DNA of 59,094 nt, from assembly GCF_003946885.1 (NCBI RefSeq), contig NZ_RWKQ01000006.1:653-59746 (forward strand). The letters run 5' to 3'. The notes under the pieces were generated by a model. It was not told the DNA's origin, did no database searches, and saw only the letters and a list, made by a program, of their open reading frames with translations. The translations under genes were made by a program, and so were the position numbers. This stretch comes from Specibacter cremeus (lineage in GTDB: Bacteria > Actinomycetota > Actinomycetes > Actinomycetales > Micrococcaceae). Numbering within the stretch: position 1 is the stretch's first letter; each line of letters begins with the position of its first letter. Below are positions 882-59,094 of this stretch, piece by piece.

Positions 882-1053
882 GGTGGTCGAGCTTGTCGAG
901 CCCCGGGGGTTTCGACGGGCTCAACCACCGGGGGTTTCGACGGGCTCAACCACCGGGGTTTCGACGGGCTCAACCACCGGGGGTTTCGACGGGCTCAACC
1001 ACCGGGGGGGTCTACGGGCTCAACCACCGGGGGTTTCGACGGGCTCAACCACC
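882..1053. repeat. Intergenic array of the TCGA-rich 20-nt repeat
   Basis: The array starts with one unit in the orientation GGTGGTCGAGCTTGTCGAG. It continues with about six units of the opposite orientation, core TTTCGACGGGCTCAACCACC, separated by runs of 4-7 G. Unit spacing varies (24, 25 nt and more). One unit is decayed (TCTACGGGCTCAACCACC). It lies directly after the stop of the sugar isomerase at 1061 and before the S4 gene. Opposed units can pair into a hairpin. Confidence 0.9.
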
Positions 1054-2062: not shown

Positions 2063-3360
2063 GACAGGCTCCTCTTCGGTGTCGGGGTTTCGACCAGCTC
2101 AACCACCGGGGTTTCGACCAGCTCAACCACCGGGGTTTCGACCAGCTCAACCACCGGGGCTTCGATCAGCCCAACCACCGGGGCTTCGAACAGCTCAACC
2201 ACCGGGACCGTGGACCCGCCGGCGGCGGCGGATTCCTCCCAGGCGGCCAGGACGCGCTGGACCTGAAGCCCCTCGGCGAACGACGGCGACGGGTCGGTTT
2301 GGTCGCGGATGTTCAGCAGGAAGTCGCGCAGCTGGTGCGTGAACGAGTGCTCCCAGCCAATCACATGCCCCTGCGGCCACCACCCGTCCAGGTAGGGGTG
2401 GCCGGGCTCCGTGACGAGGATCCGGCGGAATCCCTGGATCTCGGCGGGGTCGGTGCCGTCCAGGAAATACAGCTCGTTGGGGTCCTCCAGGTTGAACTTC
2501 AGCGCCCCGGCGCTGCCGTACACCTCGACGGCCAGCGCGTTCTTCTGGCCCAGCGCCACCCGGGACACCTCGACGCTGGCCACGGCGCCACCGGCCATCG
2601 TCAGCGTGGCCCAGGCGGCGTCGTCGACCGTCACCGGCTCCGGACCGTCGGGGCCGGGGCGTTCGGTGACGAACGTGTGCAGCCGGCCGCTGACCTCGGT
2701 CACGGCGTCGTCGAGCAGGTACTGGACCTGGTCGACGGCGTGCGAGGCGATGTCGCCCAGGGCGCCGGAGCCGGCGGTTTCCTTGCGCAGCCGCCACGTC
2801 ATGGGGGAGTCGGCGTCGACCAGCCAGTCCTGCAGGTAAGAGGCACGGACCTGGCGGATGGTGCCGAGCCTGCCGCCGGCGATCAGCTCGCGGGCCAGGG
2901 CCAGGGCCGGCACGCGCCGGTAGTTGAAGCCGACCATGGAGCGCACACCCCGGGCGCGGGCGTCCGTCGCGGCGGCCACCATGGCCGTGGATTCGTCCAT
3001 CGTGTTGGCCAGCGGCTTCTCCACGAGCACATGCTTGCCGGCGGCCAGCGCCGCGGTGGCGATTTCGGCGTGCAGCCAACCGGGCGCGCAGATGTCGACG
3101 ATGTCGATGTCGTCCCGGGCGATGACCTCCCGCCAGTCGGTGGCGGATTCGCTCCAGCCGTAGCGGCTGGCGGCGGCCGCCACGGCCACCGCGTCCCGGC
3201 CCACGAGCACCTTCTGTTCGAAGGCCGGGACGTCAAAGTGGTTGCCGACGCTCCGCCACGCGTTGGAGTGCGCCTTGCCCATGAAGGCGTACCCGATCGC
3301 CGCCACGCCCAGGGTGTGGGCGGCGGTGGGCGGTGGTGCGGTCTTTGGAGGGGAGGTCAT
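2059..3360 (-). CDS. Gfo/Idh/MocA oxidoreductase with repeat-encoded C-terminal tail
   Basis: 433 residues. An N-terminal Rossmann fold (VAAIGYAFMGKAHSNAW) is followed by the dinucleotide-fold segment EKPLANT and a C-terminal alpha/beta domain, so it is an NAD(P)-dependent sugar dehydrogenase. The last 47 or so residues are not family sequence. They are five 8-residue units (VVELVETP and variants) encoded by the 24-nt repeat array at 2084-2203, followed by TPKRSLS. The stop overlaps the next gene's start (ATGA), and its own ATG at 3360 overlaps the upstream gene's stop. The array therefore entered or expanded without breaking the frame or the coupling. Confidence 0.88.
   Translation of the reverse strand: MTSPPKTAPPPTAAHTLGVAAIGYAFMGKAHSNAWRSVGNHFDVPAFEQKVLVGRDAVAVAAAASRYGWSESATDWREVIARDDIDIVDICAPGWLHAEIATAALAAGKHVLVEKPLANTMDESTAMVAAATDARARGVRSMVGFNYRRVPALALARELIAGGRLGTIRQVRASYLQDWLVDADSPMTWRLRKETAGSGALGDIASHAVDQVQYLLDDAVTEVSGRLHTFVTERPGPDGPEPVTVDDAAWATLTMAGGAVASVEVSRVALGQKNALAVEVYGSAGALKFNLEDPNELYFLDGTDPAEIQGFRRILVTEPGHPYLDGWWPQGHVIGWEHSFTHQLRDFLLNIRDQTDPSPSFAEGLQVQRVLAAWEESAAAGGSTVPVVELFEAPVVGLIEAPVVELVETPVVELVETPVVELVETPTPKRSLS
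2084..2203. repeat. Five 24-nt repeat units inside a coding sequence
   Basis: Five contiguous 24-nt units (2084-2107, 2108-2131, 2132-2155, 2156-2179, 2180-2203), core TTTCGACCAGCTCAACCACC. The first three are identical and the last two carry substitutions. All units are exactly eight codons on the minus strand, unlike the variable 24-26 nt spacing of the intergenic array at 882-1053. Confidence 0.95.
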
Positions 3361-10056: not shown

Positions 10057-10139
10057 GGTGATCGAGCCTGTTGGGATCCGGTGTGGATCTCGACAGGCTC
10101 GGATCTCGACGGGCTCGGATCTCGACAGGCTCGATCACC
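10057..10139. repeat. Repeat array in the aceA-aceB spacer
   Basis: Outer arms GGTGATCGAGCCTGT (10057-10071) and ACAGGCTCGATCACC (10125-10139) are a perfect 15-bp inverted repeat. Between them are three tandem 16-nt units GGATCTCGACAGGCTC (10085-10132, the second with one change). It would form a hairpin in the intercistronic RNA and could attenuate or stabilise the two messages differently. Confidence 0.85.
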
Positions 10140-38529: not shown

Positions 38530-38557
38530 GTGGCGGTGGTCGGGTCAGTCGGGACCC

Positions 38558-38685
38558 GGTGGTCGAGCTTGTCGAGACCTGATTTCGACAGGCTCAATCA
38601 CCGGTGGTCGAGCTTGTCGAGACCTGATTTCGACAGGCTCAATCACCGACGACGGGCTCAATCACCGATGACAAGCTCGACCACC
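38558..38685. repeat. Intergenic repeat array with exact 45-bp duplication
   Basis: Two identical 45-nt units (38558-38602, 38603-38647), each made of a forward repeat, GGTGGTCGAGCTTGTCGAG, and an inverted one, TTTCGACAGGCTCAATCACC. Two partial units follow, to 38685. It lies between the convergent mctP and SRPBCC genes and can form hairpins. Confidence 0.92.
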
Positions 38686-47876: not shown

Positions 47877-48006
47877 GGTGATTGAGCCTGTCGAAACTTG
47901 CGGTGGTCGAGCCTGTCGAGACCCGCGGTGGTCGAGCCTGTCGAGACCGTTGATTTCGACAGGCTCAATCACCGACGGGCTCAATCACCGACGGGCTCAG
48001 TCACCG
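47877..48006. repeat. Intergenic repeat array with perfect 20-bp hairpin arms
   Basis: GGTGATTGAGCCTGTCGAAA (47877-47896) and its exact complement (47954-47973) enclose two more forward units; partial inverted units follow. It lies between convergent genes, and its far end supplies the stop codon of the DUF1684 gene. Confidence 0.9.
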
Positions 48007-52343: not shown

Positions 52344-52501
52344 GGTGGTCGAGCCCGTCGAGGCCCGCGGGGCCCTCGCGCTCGTGGGCCCAGCGGTCGA
52401 GCTCGTCGGTCCGGTGGTCGAGCTCGTCGGTGGTCGAGCTTGTCGGTGGTCGAGCTTGTCGGTGGTCGAGCTTGTCGAGACCCGGGACATGCTCAATCAC
52501 C
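52344..52501. repeat. Intergenic repeat array with 16-nt slippage units
   Basis: Forward units GGTGGTCGAGC(C/T)(C/T)GTC. From 52413 to 52476 there are four tandem 16-nt truncated copies GGTGGTCGAGCTTGTC (the first with one change); the last continues to a full unit. A single inverted fragment GCTCAATCACC ends the array at 52501. Confidence 0.9.
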
Positions 52502-55198: not shown

Positions 55199-58100
55199 CT
55201 ATGCACGGATCCGCAACCCCCGCGGCGTGCTGTAGGCGCCGGCGGCCTGCAGCGCCGCCGCGACCGGCGTGCCCAGCAGGTCCACGCCGTTGACCTTCTC
55301 CATGGCCAGCTTGTCCACGCCGCCGCGCAGCACGACGCGGACCAGGGCCCCGGCCGCCAGGGCGAGCGGGCCGTCGTCGTCCGTGAAACACAGCAGCGTC
55401 TTGCCGCCGCGCTCCACATACAGCACCAGCGCCCCGTCCACCAGTGCCACGAGCGCGCCCGCCTTCCGGCCCGGCCGGTGCCCGACGTCCAGGACCGGCC
55501 ACGGCAGTGCCGCCCCGTACGGGTTCGCCGGGTCGGTCGCCGCCAGCACCACGGCCTGCGGCGGGCGCGGGTTGGCGGCGGCGTCCGCGGCGAACGAGCG
55601 CAGCCTGTCGACCGTGGCCGGAACGGCGAACTGTGCGGCGCCCAGGTGCTCGATGAAGTACCCGCGCCGGCACCGGCCGGCCTCCTCCAGCCGGGCCAAC
55701 ACCTTGTACATGAGCCCGAAACCGCCCGGCACGCCCTGGCTCATGACCGATCCGCGCGTGACCACCCCGTACCGGTCCAGCAGCAGTTCGGCCAGCGCGG
55801 CGGAGTGTTCCGCCACCTGCAATGAGGCCCCGTGCGCCGATGCCGGGGTCGACTCCGGCAGCGGCAGCGCGCTCCACCGCCCGGCGGCCAGCGGCGGCGT
55901 GGCGCGCCCGGGCGCGGCCCGCCCGGGCAGCCCGCCGTACCGTCCGGACCGGCCGGGGCGCAGCCGTGGCGGCGTGGGCCGCTGCCGGTGCGAGGTGTGC
56001 CCGCCGGCCAGCAGCGCCCGGACCGGGGCGAACGTGTCATTGCCGGCGCGCCCCGCCCAGAACAGGTCCCACAGCGCGGTGGTCAGCTCGTCGTCGGAGG
56101 GCAGGATGTCCGGGGCGTCGGCCACGAGTTCGCGCAATTGGTGGAAGAAGTACGCGCCGCCGCCGGCCAGCCGGTCCAGCAGCCTGCGCTGCAGTTCGGT
56201 GGGCGTGAAGTCCGCCGCCTGGGCCAGCGTCAGCGCGGCGGACTCCGCCGCGTGCAGCGCCACCCAGCCGTCATTGCCGGGAATCGGGCCCGCCCCGGAC
56301 GCGATGACCTCGCCGGAGGCCATCAGCTCGTCCAGTAGGCCGGGCGCATAGCCGGCCACGCGCGCGGCCAGCACCAGCGGTTCCCACGCCGAGGCCGGGA
56401 TCGGCACGCCCGCCAGCTGGTCCACGACCGCCAGCACGCCGTCCACCCCGCGCAGGGCCGGCGCCCCGGACACGGCCGCCACGTTCTGCCAGGCGGGCAG
56501 GAACCGGCCGAACGTGGCGGCATCCACCGGCTCCACCTCGGCCCGCAGGGCGGCCAGCGACCGGTTGCGCAGCCGCCGCAGCACGCCGACGTCGCACCAT
56601 TCGCCGCCCGCCTCCCGATCCCCCAGCAGTTCGGGGGGAAGGAAATCTCCCTCGACCACGCGCCGGTCCGCGGCCAGCCGGGCCAGCCCCGAGCGGACGA
56701 CGGCGATGCCCAGTCCCAGCCGCAGCGCGGCCGCCGCCGCGGTGAACGGCCCGTGGGTGCGGGCGTACCGGCCCAACAGGTCCCCGAGCGGGTCCGGAAC
56801 GGGTTCGATGAACGCCGACGGCACGCCCATGGGCAGCGGGATCCCGAGCGCGTCGCGCAGCCGGGACGCGTCCTCGATCGCGGCGAACCGCGCCTCACCG
56901 GCCATGTTCACGCGCAGGGCGCGGTGCGCGCGGACCAGCCGGTCCAGGTGCGCCGCGGCCACGTCCGGCCACGCGTGCGCCGCGGTACCAGCGACACCGG
57001 GCGGCCCGCCGTCGTCCGTGGCCGCGGCACCTGCGACACCACGCTCCGGTTCCGCGACCTCCGACTCCAGCCGGGCGGCGACCTCGTCCACGGTCAGCGG
57101 GCCGAGCAGCCGCAGCAGGTCGGCGACGCCCTCCAACCCGCGGGCGCGCCGGCCCGGGGCCAGCCACTGCAGCTGCGCCTCGGTCTCGACGATGACGCGC
57201 GGGTCCAGCAGTTCGCGCAACTCGGCCCGGCCCAGCAGTTCGTCCAGCAGCGCCGGGTCCAGCGACAGTGCGGCGGCGCGGCGTTCGGCCAGCGGCGAGT
57301 CGCCCTCGTACAGGAACGTGGCCACGTACCCGAACAGCAGGGCGCGGGCGAACGGGGACGGCTGGTTCGTGGTGGTCTCGACCAGGCGCAGCTCGCGCCG
57401 TTCGACGCCGGCCGCGAGGGCCTTCAGCGCGGGCAGGTCGTACACGTCCTGCAGGCATTCGCGCACGGTCTCGAGTACGATCGGGAACTGCGGGTACTTG
57501 CGCGCCACGTCCAGCAGCTGCGCCGAGCGTTGGCGCTGCTGCCACAGTGGCGACCGCTTGCCCGGGTTCTGCCGCGGCAGCAGTAGAGCCCGGGCCGCGC
57601 ATTCGCGGAAACGGCTGGCGAACAGCGCTGAACCGCCCACCTCCGCCGTGACGATCGCGTCGAGCTCGTCGGGGGCGAACAGGAACAGCTCGGCGCCGGG
57701 CGGGTCGTCGTCCATCAGCGGCACACGCAGCACGATCCCGTCGTCGGAGGCCATCGCCGAACCGTCCAGCCCGTACCGCTCCTGCAGCCGGGCGCCCACG
57801 GCCAGGGCCCACGGCGCGTGCACCGGCATGCCGAACGGGCTGTGCAGGACGACACGCCAGTCGCCGAGCTCGTCGTGGAAGCGCTCCACCAGCAGCGTCC
57901 TGTCATCGGGCACGACGCCGGTGGCCGCCTTTTGCTCGTCAAGGTAGCCGAGCAGATTGTTGGCTGCCCAGTCGTCCAGCCCGGTGGCACGGCAGCGGGC
58001 CAGTGCGTCCTCGCGCGGGGCGGCCGCCACCTCCCGGGTGAACGCGCCGAGCGCCCGGCCGAGTTCCACCGGCCGGCCCAGTGAATCGCCCTTCCAGAAC

Positions 58101-59094
58101 GGCAGTTTGCCCGGTTGCCCGAACGCGGGGGAGACGAGCACCCGGTCGAACGTGATGTCCTCGATCTTCCAGCTGGTGGCGCCCAGCGCGAAGACGTCGC
58201 CGACGCGGGACTCGTACACCATCTCCTCGTCGAGCTCGCCGACCCGGCGCCCTCCGGTGGTCGAGCTTGTCGAGACCGAGCCTCCGGTGGTCGAGCTTGT
58301 CGAGACCGAGACCCCGGGGTCCCCGACGATATACACGCCGAACAGGCCGCGGTCCGGGATGGTGCCGCCCGAGGTGACGGCCAGCCGTTGCGCGCCCGGA
58401 CGCCCGGTGATGGTGCCGCCCACCCGGTCCCACACGATGCGCGGGCGCAGCTCGGCGAACTCGTCCGACGGGTAGCGGCCGGCCAGCAGGTCCAGCGTGG
58501 CGTCGAACGCGCTGCGCGGCAGGGCCGCGAACGGGGCGCTGCGCCGGACGGTGTCGAACCAGTCGTCCACGCCGATGCCGCCCAGCGCCGTGGCGGCCAC
58601 GGTCTGCTGGGCCAGGATGTCCAGCGGGTTGGCGGGCACGGCGAGCGGTTCGATCTGCCCGGCCAGCATGCGCTCGACCGTCACGGTCGAATGCAGCAGG
58701 TCGGCCCGATGCTTGGGGAACAGCACACCCTGGGAAACCTCGTTGACCTGGTGCCCGGCCCGGCCCACCCGTTGCAGCCCGCTGGCCACCGACGGCGGCG
58801 ACTCGACCTGGATGACCAGGTCCACGGCACCCATGTCGATGCCCAGCTCCAGGCTGGAGGTGGCGACCACGCAGCGCAGCCGGCCGGACTTCAGGTCGTC
58901 CTCGATGAGTGCCCGCTGTTCCTTGGACACCGAGCCGTGGTGCGCCTTGGCGAGCACATTCGGCGCGCCCGCGACCGACCCGGCCTGCGCCATCATCTCG
59001 GCGGGAAGCCGGGCCGCTGGTCGAGCTTGTCGAGACCCGTCCGCTGGTCGAGCTTGTCGAGACCCGTCCGCTGGTCGAGCTTGTCGAGACCCGT
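55199..59094 (-). CDS. lhr: Lhr-type DNA helicase, 5' end outside window, with repeat inserts
   Basis: About 1298 codons are visible with no stop up to the edge. The helicase C-terminal RecA domain is present (AKAHHGSVSKEQR, SSLELGIDMGAVDLVIQVESP, GLQRVGRAGHQV), then the winged-helix/Lhr core (PRIVWDRVGGTITGRPGAQR, ELDEEMVYESRVGDVFALGA) and the long Lhr C-terminal region. Two repeat arrays lie in frame: 58251-58310 (units of SVSTSSTTGG) after GVYIVGDPG, and 59014-59094 (units of GSRQARPAD) before MMAQAGSVAGAP. Both look like surface loops. The N-terminal motor domain is beyond the window. Confidence 0.93.
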   Translation of the reverse strand, partial: GSRQARPADGSRQARPADGSRQARPAARLPAEMMAQAGSVAGAPNVLAKAHHGSVSKEQRALIEDDLKSGRLRCVVATSSLELGIDMGAVDLVIQVESPPSVASGLQRVGRAGHQVNEVSQGVLFPKHRADLLHSTVTVERMLAGQIEPLAVPANPLDILAQQTVAATALGGIGVDDWFDTVRRSAPFAALPRSAFDATLDLLAGRYPSDEFAELRPRIVWDRVGGTITGRPGAQRLAVTSGGTIPDRGLFGVYIVGDPGVSVSTSSTTGGSVSTSSTTGGRRVGELDEEMVYESRVGDVFALGATSWKIEDITFDRVLVSPAFGQPGKLPFWKGDSLGRPVELGRALGAFTREVAAAPREDALARCRATGLDDWAANNLLGYLDEQKAATGVVPDDRTLLVERFHDELGDWRVVLHSPFGMPVHAPWALAVGARLQERYGLDGSAMASDDGIVLRVPLMDDDPPGAELFLFAPDELDAIVTAEVGGSALFASRFRECAARALLLPRQNPGKRSPLWQQRQRSAQLLDVARKYPQFPIVLETVRECLQDVYDLPALKALAAGVERRELRLVETTTNQPSPFARALLFGYVATFLYEGDSPLAERRAAALSLDPALLDELLGRAELRELLDPRVIVETEAQLQWLAPGRRARGLEGVADLLRLLGPLTVDEVAARLESEVAEPERGVAGAAATDDGGPPGVAGTAAHAWPDVAAAHLDRLVRAHRALRVNMAGEARFAAIEDASRLRDALGIPLPMGVPSAFIEPVPDPLGDLLGRYARTHGPFTAAAAALRLGLGIAVVRSGLARLAADRRVVEGDFLPPELLGDREAGGEWCDVGVLRRLRNRSLAALRAEVEPVDAATFGRFLPAWQNVAAVSGAPALRGVDGVLAVVDQLAGVPIPASAWEPLVLAARVAGYAPGLLDELMASGEVIASGAGPIPGNDGWVALHAAESAALTLAQAADFTPTELQRRLLDRLAGGGAYFFHQLRELVADAPDILPSDDELTTALWDLFWAGRAGNDTFAPVRALLAGGHTSHRQRPTPPRLRPGRSGRYGGLPGRAAPGRATPPLAAGRWSALPLPESTPASAHGASLQVAEHSAALAELLLDRYGVVTRGSVMSQGVPGGFGLMYKVLARLEEAGRCRRGYFIEHLGAAQFAVPATVDRLRSFAADAAANPRPPQAVVLAATDPANPYGAALPWPVLDVGHRPGRKAGALVALVDGALVLYVERGGKTLLCFTDDDGPLALAAGALVRVVLRGGVDKLAMEKVNGVDLLGTPVAAALQAAGAYSTPRGLRIRA
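58251..58310. repeat. Two exact 30-nt repeat units inside lhr
   Basis: Units 58251-58280 and 58281-58310 are identical and contain GGTGGTCGAGCTTGTCGAGA. Thirty nt is ten codons, so the helicase frame is kept. Confidence 0.95.
59014..59094. repeat. Three exact 27-nt repeat units inside lhr, running off the window
   Basis: Units 59014-59040, 59041-59067 and 59068-59094 are identical and contain TGGTCGAGCTTGTCGAGACC. Twenty-seven nt is nine codons. The array continues past the edge, so its real length is unknown. Confidence 0.95.

Follow-up and report, generated by a model that had tools for sequence, protein, structure and literature searches.

The closest described systems are the tagged REP superfamilies. 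According to the available text of PMC3733652, GTAG- and CGTC-tagged REPs are mostly intergenic, with a minority lying inside ORFs, DNA repair genes included; dimers occur, heterodimers being preferred in most families, and clusters encode 43–82 aa in Thauera and R. conorii. CGTC-tagged REPs, together with RPE-4 and RPE-6, are characterized there by an unpaired CGTC (or TGTC, CCTC), a stem of 8–9 bp and a loop of 4–5. The phyla named for both superfamilies in that text exclude Actinomycetota, neither 'actinobact' nor 'arthrobacter' occurs in it, and untagged REP-like families are mentioned for M. tuberculosis and others. The accessible portion of PMC12306157 includes a table with counts for Arthrobacter livingstonensis and displays no motif for that species.

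The repeats described here lie in a window (the whole stretch of Specibacter cremeus DNA that was analysed, 59,094 nucleotides) that ends within an ORF on the minus strand at 55199..59094. This ORF has 1297 codons inside the window and a full length of 1650 aa once extended in contig C56, across one N. It scored 1339 bits against NCBIfam PRK09751, for a cut-off of 1496 and an ORF truncated by the window end. It contained the Pfam domains WH_Lhr, DEAD_assoc and WH2-4_Lhr, and matched PDB chains 7lhl and 5v9x, both titled ATP-dependent DNA helicase, which we take to be mycobacterial Lhr. By its domains and architecture, the product belongs among the Lhr helicases.

Two in-frame arrays were found in this ORF. 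Array A (58251..58310, minus strand) consists of two identical 30-nt units, CCTCCGGTGGTCGAGCTTGTCGAGACCGAG, in a loop inside WH_Lhr (protein 108–297), and, translated in the frame of Lhr, encodes SVSTSSTTGG twice between GVYIVGDPGV and GRRVGELDEEMVYESRVGDVF; the sequence-only reading had described these two identical in-frame copies, and did so correctly. Each unit holds, on the plus strand, one exact copy of a REP-like element, comprising the tag CGGT and the hairpin GGTCGAGCTTGTCGAGACC (58255..58277 and 58285..58307). Against 7lhl, 19 residues of the loop were without counterpart. An AlphaFold2 model of this part of Lhr (A1, 19 rows) had a mean pLDDT of 57.5, with block means of 24–36 in the loop region; given this low confidence, the model was used only to remark that strands 219–223 and 250–255 flank a coil. 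Array B (59014..59094, minus strand), which had been overlooked earlier despite being in the same ORF, lies closer to the N-terminus and has three identical 27-nt units, counted up to an assembly N at base 59747 of contig C56, just past the window end. It is read in another frame, as GSRQARPAD, and its tag is a variant, CGCT.

The element is a 19-nt hairpin with a 4-bp covarying stem, a conserved interior of 11 nt (TCGACnnGCTC) and the tag CGGT, summarized as G-R-T-Y / TCGAC-nn-GCTC / R-A-Y-C. As a short palindrome with a shared consensus and many copies, it fits the general definition of a REP. The exact 19-mer occurred 132 times in the genome and its reversed control not once, so that the array A unit is indeed the intergenic repeat of this genome, as had been proposed. 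TCGACNRGCTC was amplified, having 933 genome matches compared with 199 for the reversed control. Among 22 relatives from the genus there were 14–272 such matches each, many counts being no higher than their own control. Across 396 genomes of the phylum, TTCGACNRGCTCA was counted 283 times in the genome itself (control, 2), the next highest counts being 56 in G310 (control, 2) and 45 in G030 (control, 0). A scan of the window with Rfam returned no match at gathering score, and searches of the open-access literature by core string and by words, judged by title and the start of the abstract, gave no description of a TCGACnnGCTC repeat family among the papers listed.

Structure and position were evaluated in a sample of 571,782 bases (approximately 0.57 Mb), comprising the window, the rest of the retrieved C56 sequence, and 56 stretches around 19-mer matches; since the stretches were picked around 100 of the 132 exact matches, this is a GGTC-type sample and not the complete genome. 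It contained 367 exact TCGACnnGCTC cores, of which 277 had four and 36 had three paired bases in their 4-nt arms. The stem types among the 367 sites included GGTC/GACC (173), GATT/AATC (71), GGTT/AACC (19) and GATC/GATC (11), and mean arm pairing was 3.46 of 4, compared with 2.59 after shuffling (maximum 2.74 in 200 shuffles). Among 275 four-pair sites, ACCG followed the hairpin with 95–100% agreement per position, which is equivalent to CGGT before the hairpin on the opposite strand. As DNA, a single unit folded weakly (-3.5 kcal/mol, z = -1.2) and the GATT form at about 0, which counts against the explanation preferred below.

Coding segments were called with our own 3-periodic codon model, trained on 210 long ORFs, and 87% of the sample was called coding. 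The 338 elements were grouped into 122 arrays, of which five weak single matches were dropped and 117 kept. Arrays were mostly extragenic and near gene 3' ends: 53 lay between convergent segments, 49 between tandem and only two between divergent segments. For comparison, called segments met at 97 convergent, 297 tandem and 90 divergent junctions overall (gap lengths between -20 and 600 nt). Despite the 87% coding share, only nine arrays were in genes; three were at stretch ends, and one was within a called segment but past a stop codon. In 55 tandem contexts (weak matches kept), the array began a median of 29 nt past the 3' end of the upstream segment, and 11 of the 55 overlapped that segment. 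Of the neighbouring pairs outside genes (up to 60 nt apart), 54 were tandem and the rest inverted, with tags pointing outward in 89 and inward in 59; in 76 of the 89 outward ones, a GA-stem unit was joined to a GG-stem unit.

Several such arrays are present in the window itself. The intergenic array at 885..1050 begins with one inverted GGGC/GACC unit, followed by GGTT/AACC-stem units. The sequence-only reading had set a 24–26 nt spacing in this region (882–1053) against the multiple of three in Lhr; spacings of 24 and 25 were measured, but so were 23 (the inverted pair) and 50 (spanning a degenerate unit at 1007), in the order 23, 25, 24, 25, 50, and the contrast is weak because 24 nt is itself in phase. 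An array of 24-nt units at 2086..2200, its last two units degenerate, has flanks called coding in different frames. Between convergent coding segments lie inverted GGTC/GATT heterodimers at 38538..38644 and an array including an inverted dimer at 47880..47970. A degenerate array at 52347..52482 belongs to the same family; this array and another at 10060–10136 include 16-nt partial units.

Inverted dimers folded strongly as RNA. The hairpin at 38556–38604 (plus strand) had a free energy of -33.4 kcal/mol and that at 47925–47975 had -33.8 kcal/mol, and five folds from four dimer stretches outside genes ranged from -20 to -49.7 kcal/mol (z = -2.8 to -9.5). Array A of Lhr was ordinary as RNA (z = +0.56). 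In the heterodimers at 38561–38644 and 47905–47970, G-U pairing keeps the RNA paired on one strand, with mismatches on the other. The orientation of the RNA strand in tandem contexts was sense in 13 cases and antisense in five, which is no more than suggestive of a sense bias (p = 0.096). The usual site of the element is just past the 3' ends of genes, where inverted GGTC/GATT heterodimers are frequent; their strong RNA hairpins would probably serve as terminators or protectors of mRNA ends.

The sequence-only reading had further suggested that the repeat can expand into genes under a filter for reading frame. The nine in-frame arrays were distributed over Lhr (two), SucB (two), MenD, a lipoyl-domain E2 (best NCBIfam match PRK11854, below the cut-off), a TM0106-type nuclease (a RecB-like nuclease with a helicase part), GcvP and PurC; in-gene status was set by hand, through removal of three weak single matches from 11 script-flagged arrays and addition of Lhr array B. 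With the element inside an ORF, an open frame and a conserved host gene, these seven genes would qualify as carrying intragenic in-frame REPs of the RPE-like kind. Open frames and conserved flanks were observed for the host proteins, which may remain functional. The idea of a frame filter held when spacing was tabulated: neighbouring elements were a multiple of three apart in 11 of 12 in-gene pairs and 65 of 204 outside (Fisher p = 5e-5), and for same-orientation pairs in 8/8 and 27/54, respectively (Fisher p = 0.008), although neighbouring pairs are not independent and both tests are overstated accordingly. The commonest same-orientation spacing outside genes, 24 nt (16 of 54 pairs), is likewise a multiple of three. 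Tandem pairs made up 8/12 in genes and 54/202 outside (p = 0.006, overstated for the same reason).

The peptides encoded by the 21 in-gene elements were VVE[LP]VET (10), VSTSST-like (six), SRQARP (three) and DFDKLNH (two). Hence the proposed outcome, Ser/Thr loops, applied to six elements only, the other 15 reading other peptides. The frames giving RWSSLSR and GGRACRD were used by none of the 21, and array B kept one phase through to its last element. All six frames of the GGTC form are open, which would make survival within genes easier; stops occur in two frames of the GATT form and in one of the GGTT form.

Relatives did not show the clean gap at 58251–58310 that had been anticipated for an insertion; nor was the loop ordinary conserved sequence, being hypervariable. 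Of 103 Lhr loci (duplicates such as L014/L035 and L020/L034 included), 79 could be anchored, the remainder belonging mostly to more distant genera; loop length was 9–47 aa across these 79 and 28 aa in S. cremeus. Without the repeat, the latter would be 8 aa, shorter than the shortest anchored relative (9 aa), a point that counts against the preferred explanation. Some relatives carry the same or a second repeat here: the element was present in the array A loop in G013 and G022, while in G011 and G017 the loop contained a second repeat, also a hairpin (stem-TCGCAAGCTC-stem) and read as SQARSG or SQARPG. In the upstream Lhr loop, the element was present in G016. In the Lhr of G022 (L022), an 18-nt partial unit (GSTSGT-like) stands in tandem behind one full element, another in-phase expansion in the array A loop.

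Three other host genes were compared in the same way. The GcvP loop (12 of 23 loci anchored) was 36 aa in S. cremeus, with two elements, and 25–31 aa in the other 11 anchored loci, none of which had an element by the core-and-stem criterion. For PurC (19 of 23 loci anchored), the element was present in S. cremeus and in G011, and six other loci had sequence like the second repeat, partly kept in L174 and L175 as judged by eye; the PurC of G005 had the second repeat as five 54-nt units. The corresponding link is five residues in chain 3r9r and 49 in the S. cremeus PurC. Only two of 23 MenD loci fitted the search motif, and only the S. cremeus locus was anchored. The second repeat family was seen in frame in PurC or Lhr loops at L189 (the G005 PurC), L172–L175, L177, L005 and L014, and CTCGCAAGCTCG, which belongs to it, occurred 58 times in the S. 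cremeus genome (reversed control, 0). A phase rule for this repeat was dropped, as a 54-nt array in G003 had a closed frame; a further 54-nt array was seen in G005, and its arrays other than the 54-nt ones were spaced at 55–67 nt, and once at 111 nt. Around Lhr in 80 named relatives, its core had arms of at least 4 in 3/118 cases, barely more than the control (1/140).

These observations are best explained, with a probability of about 0.8, if a gene-end, REP-like bulged-hairpin element has multiplied in this lineage and the Lhr arrays are its in-frame copies within a gene; such copies would persist only where the frame is kept, the loop or linker is variable and the peptide is tolerable. Selection would act as the filter; direct tandem units are favoured within genes and inverted dimers are less common there, and arrays would grow by unit duplication, through slippage or unequal recombination. 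A near-neutral effect on Lhr appears the most economical view. On this explanation, the data put numbers on how a repeat of gene ends enters core proteins when reading frame acts as a filter, and they name the hosts and loops; tolerance of repeat-coded peptides becomes measurable, and relatives with other repeats in the same loop are a natural comparison.

Four alternatives were considered. The presence of two arrays in one protein, and occupation of the same loop in several species, could indicate that Lhr is tuned by the repeats, acting as an adaptive linker of variable length. The same elements are found in unrelated enzymes, however, and since different frames and different repeat families occur in the same loops, tolerance seems to fit better than function; an adaptive role is considered very improbable. 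Recent, active mobilization by a Y1/RAYT transposase, as for GTAG-type REPs, would account for the burst in copy number in this genome, and a tag with a bulged hairpin resembles Y1 substrates. However, Y1_Tnp (PF01797) was present in only 7 of 148 genomes of the family, and profile searches for it gave no match in the S. cremeus genome or in G030, the other genome of the family clearly enriched for the element; no paired-stem element was found within about 1.5 kb either side of eight scanned Y1 loci (of nine). Little credence is therefore given to such a mover, though a distant or since-lost enzyme is conceivable. Equally improbable is that array number or position is an artefact of the draft assembly (98 contigs), where contigs are joined through repeats: array B terminates at an N and there are Ns in the SucB region that contains its two arrays, but array A is approximately 0.8 kb from the N of array B, the frame is open and continuous through it, and elements occur in the same Lhr loop of some relatives. 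Least probable of all is an ordinary low-complexity Ser/Thr/Gly linker repeated by local codon slippage and unrelated to the intergenic repeat, for although the loop in relatives is hypervariable and low in complexity without any element, both units here hold the exact 19-mer with its tag, matched genome-wide but never in reverse, and the element recurs in six other genes, read there in this frame or in others.

The core is not restricted to S. cremeus. TCGACnnGCTC with other arms and another tail was seen in Proteobacteria and in other Actinomycetota (L240, L241, L242 and loci of G310 and G030). Plasmid stretches from Comamonas, Sphingobium and Methylobacter, chosen via BLAST with a typed sphingomonad-like repeat, had the core with arms CCCT/AGGG, TCCT/AGGA, TGGT/ACCA, CCTT/AAGG and GGCT/AGCC, and the tail CGAA in nearly every paired-arm case. 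Arms of at least 4 were found in 6/13 Comamonas, 4/5 Sphingobium (one without the tail context and possibly due to chance) and 1/2 Methylobacter cores, and in 1/4 cores of an Arthrobacter plasmid; the reversed-core control gave 0/8 across all four plasmids. Seven loci inspected in G310 had GGTT, GGCT, CCCT and TCCT arms, and G257 had 1/9, little above chance. In 1.64 Mb around Lhr from 80 named relatives, arms of at least 4 occurred in 11/234 cores, compared with 0/112 in the control. Tentatively, and with rather more doubt than confidence, the element might belong to a widespread, cross-phylum class of REP-like hairpins with a fixed TCGACnnGCTC, free covarying arms (GGTC, GATT, GGTT, CCCT, TCCT, TGGT, GGCT, CCTT), a taxon-specific tag (ACCG, NGCG or CGAA on the hairpin-first strand) and a non-Y1 mover. 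Such a class would have entered the same permissive loops repeatedly (Lhr, PurC), and its heterodimers would form RNA hairpins via G-U pairs, the DNA palindrome being imperfect. If it exists, the question becomes what multiplies such hairpins without RAYT.

Compared with the tagged superfamilies, as far as PMC3733652 presents them in its available text, the S. cremeus repeats are likewise short palindromes, mostly intergenic, sometimes within ORFs and often in dimers. They differ in having a CGGT tag, a 4-bp outer stem and an 11-nt interior, with no Y1 found, and consequently correspond neither to GTAG-tagged REPs, the unpaired tag being CGGT and no RAYT (Y1) having been detected in the genome, nor to CGTC-tagged REPs or RPE-4 and RPE-6. 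With the Rickettsia RPE, in the same text, they have in common the in-frame placement of a palindrome in ORFs whose products are probably functional; sequence and host differ, and the units here are in tandem and spaced in phase. With E. coli REP/BIME, on the accessible portion of PMC12306157, they share short, repeated, stem-forming sequences near gene ends, although tag and host are again different. In-frame intragenic REPs are thus already known from other bacteria, to judge by that part of PMC3733652; what the present data add is a CGGT-tagged bulged-hairpin family in an Arthrobacter-like genome in which no Y1 transposase was detected, its phase-biased tandem expansion within genes, and the finding that repeats of more than one family sit in the same loops.
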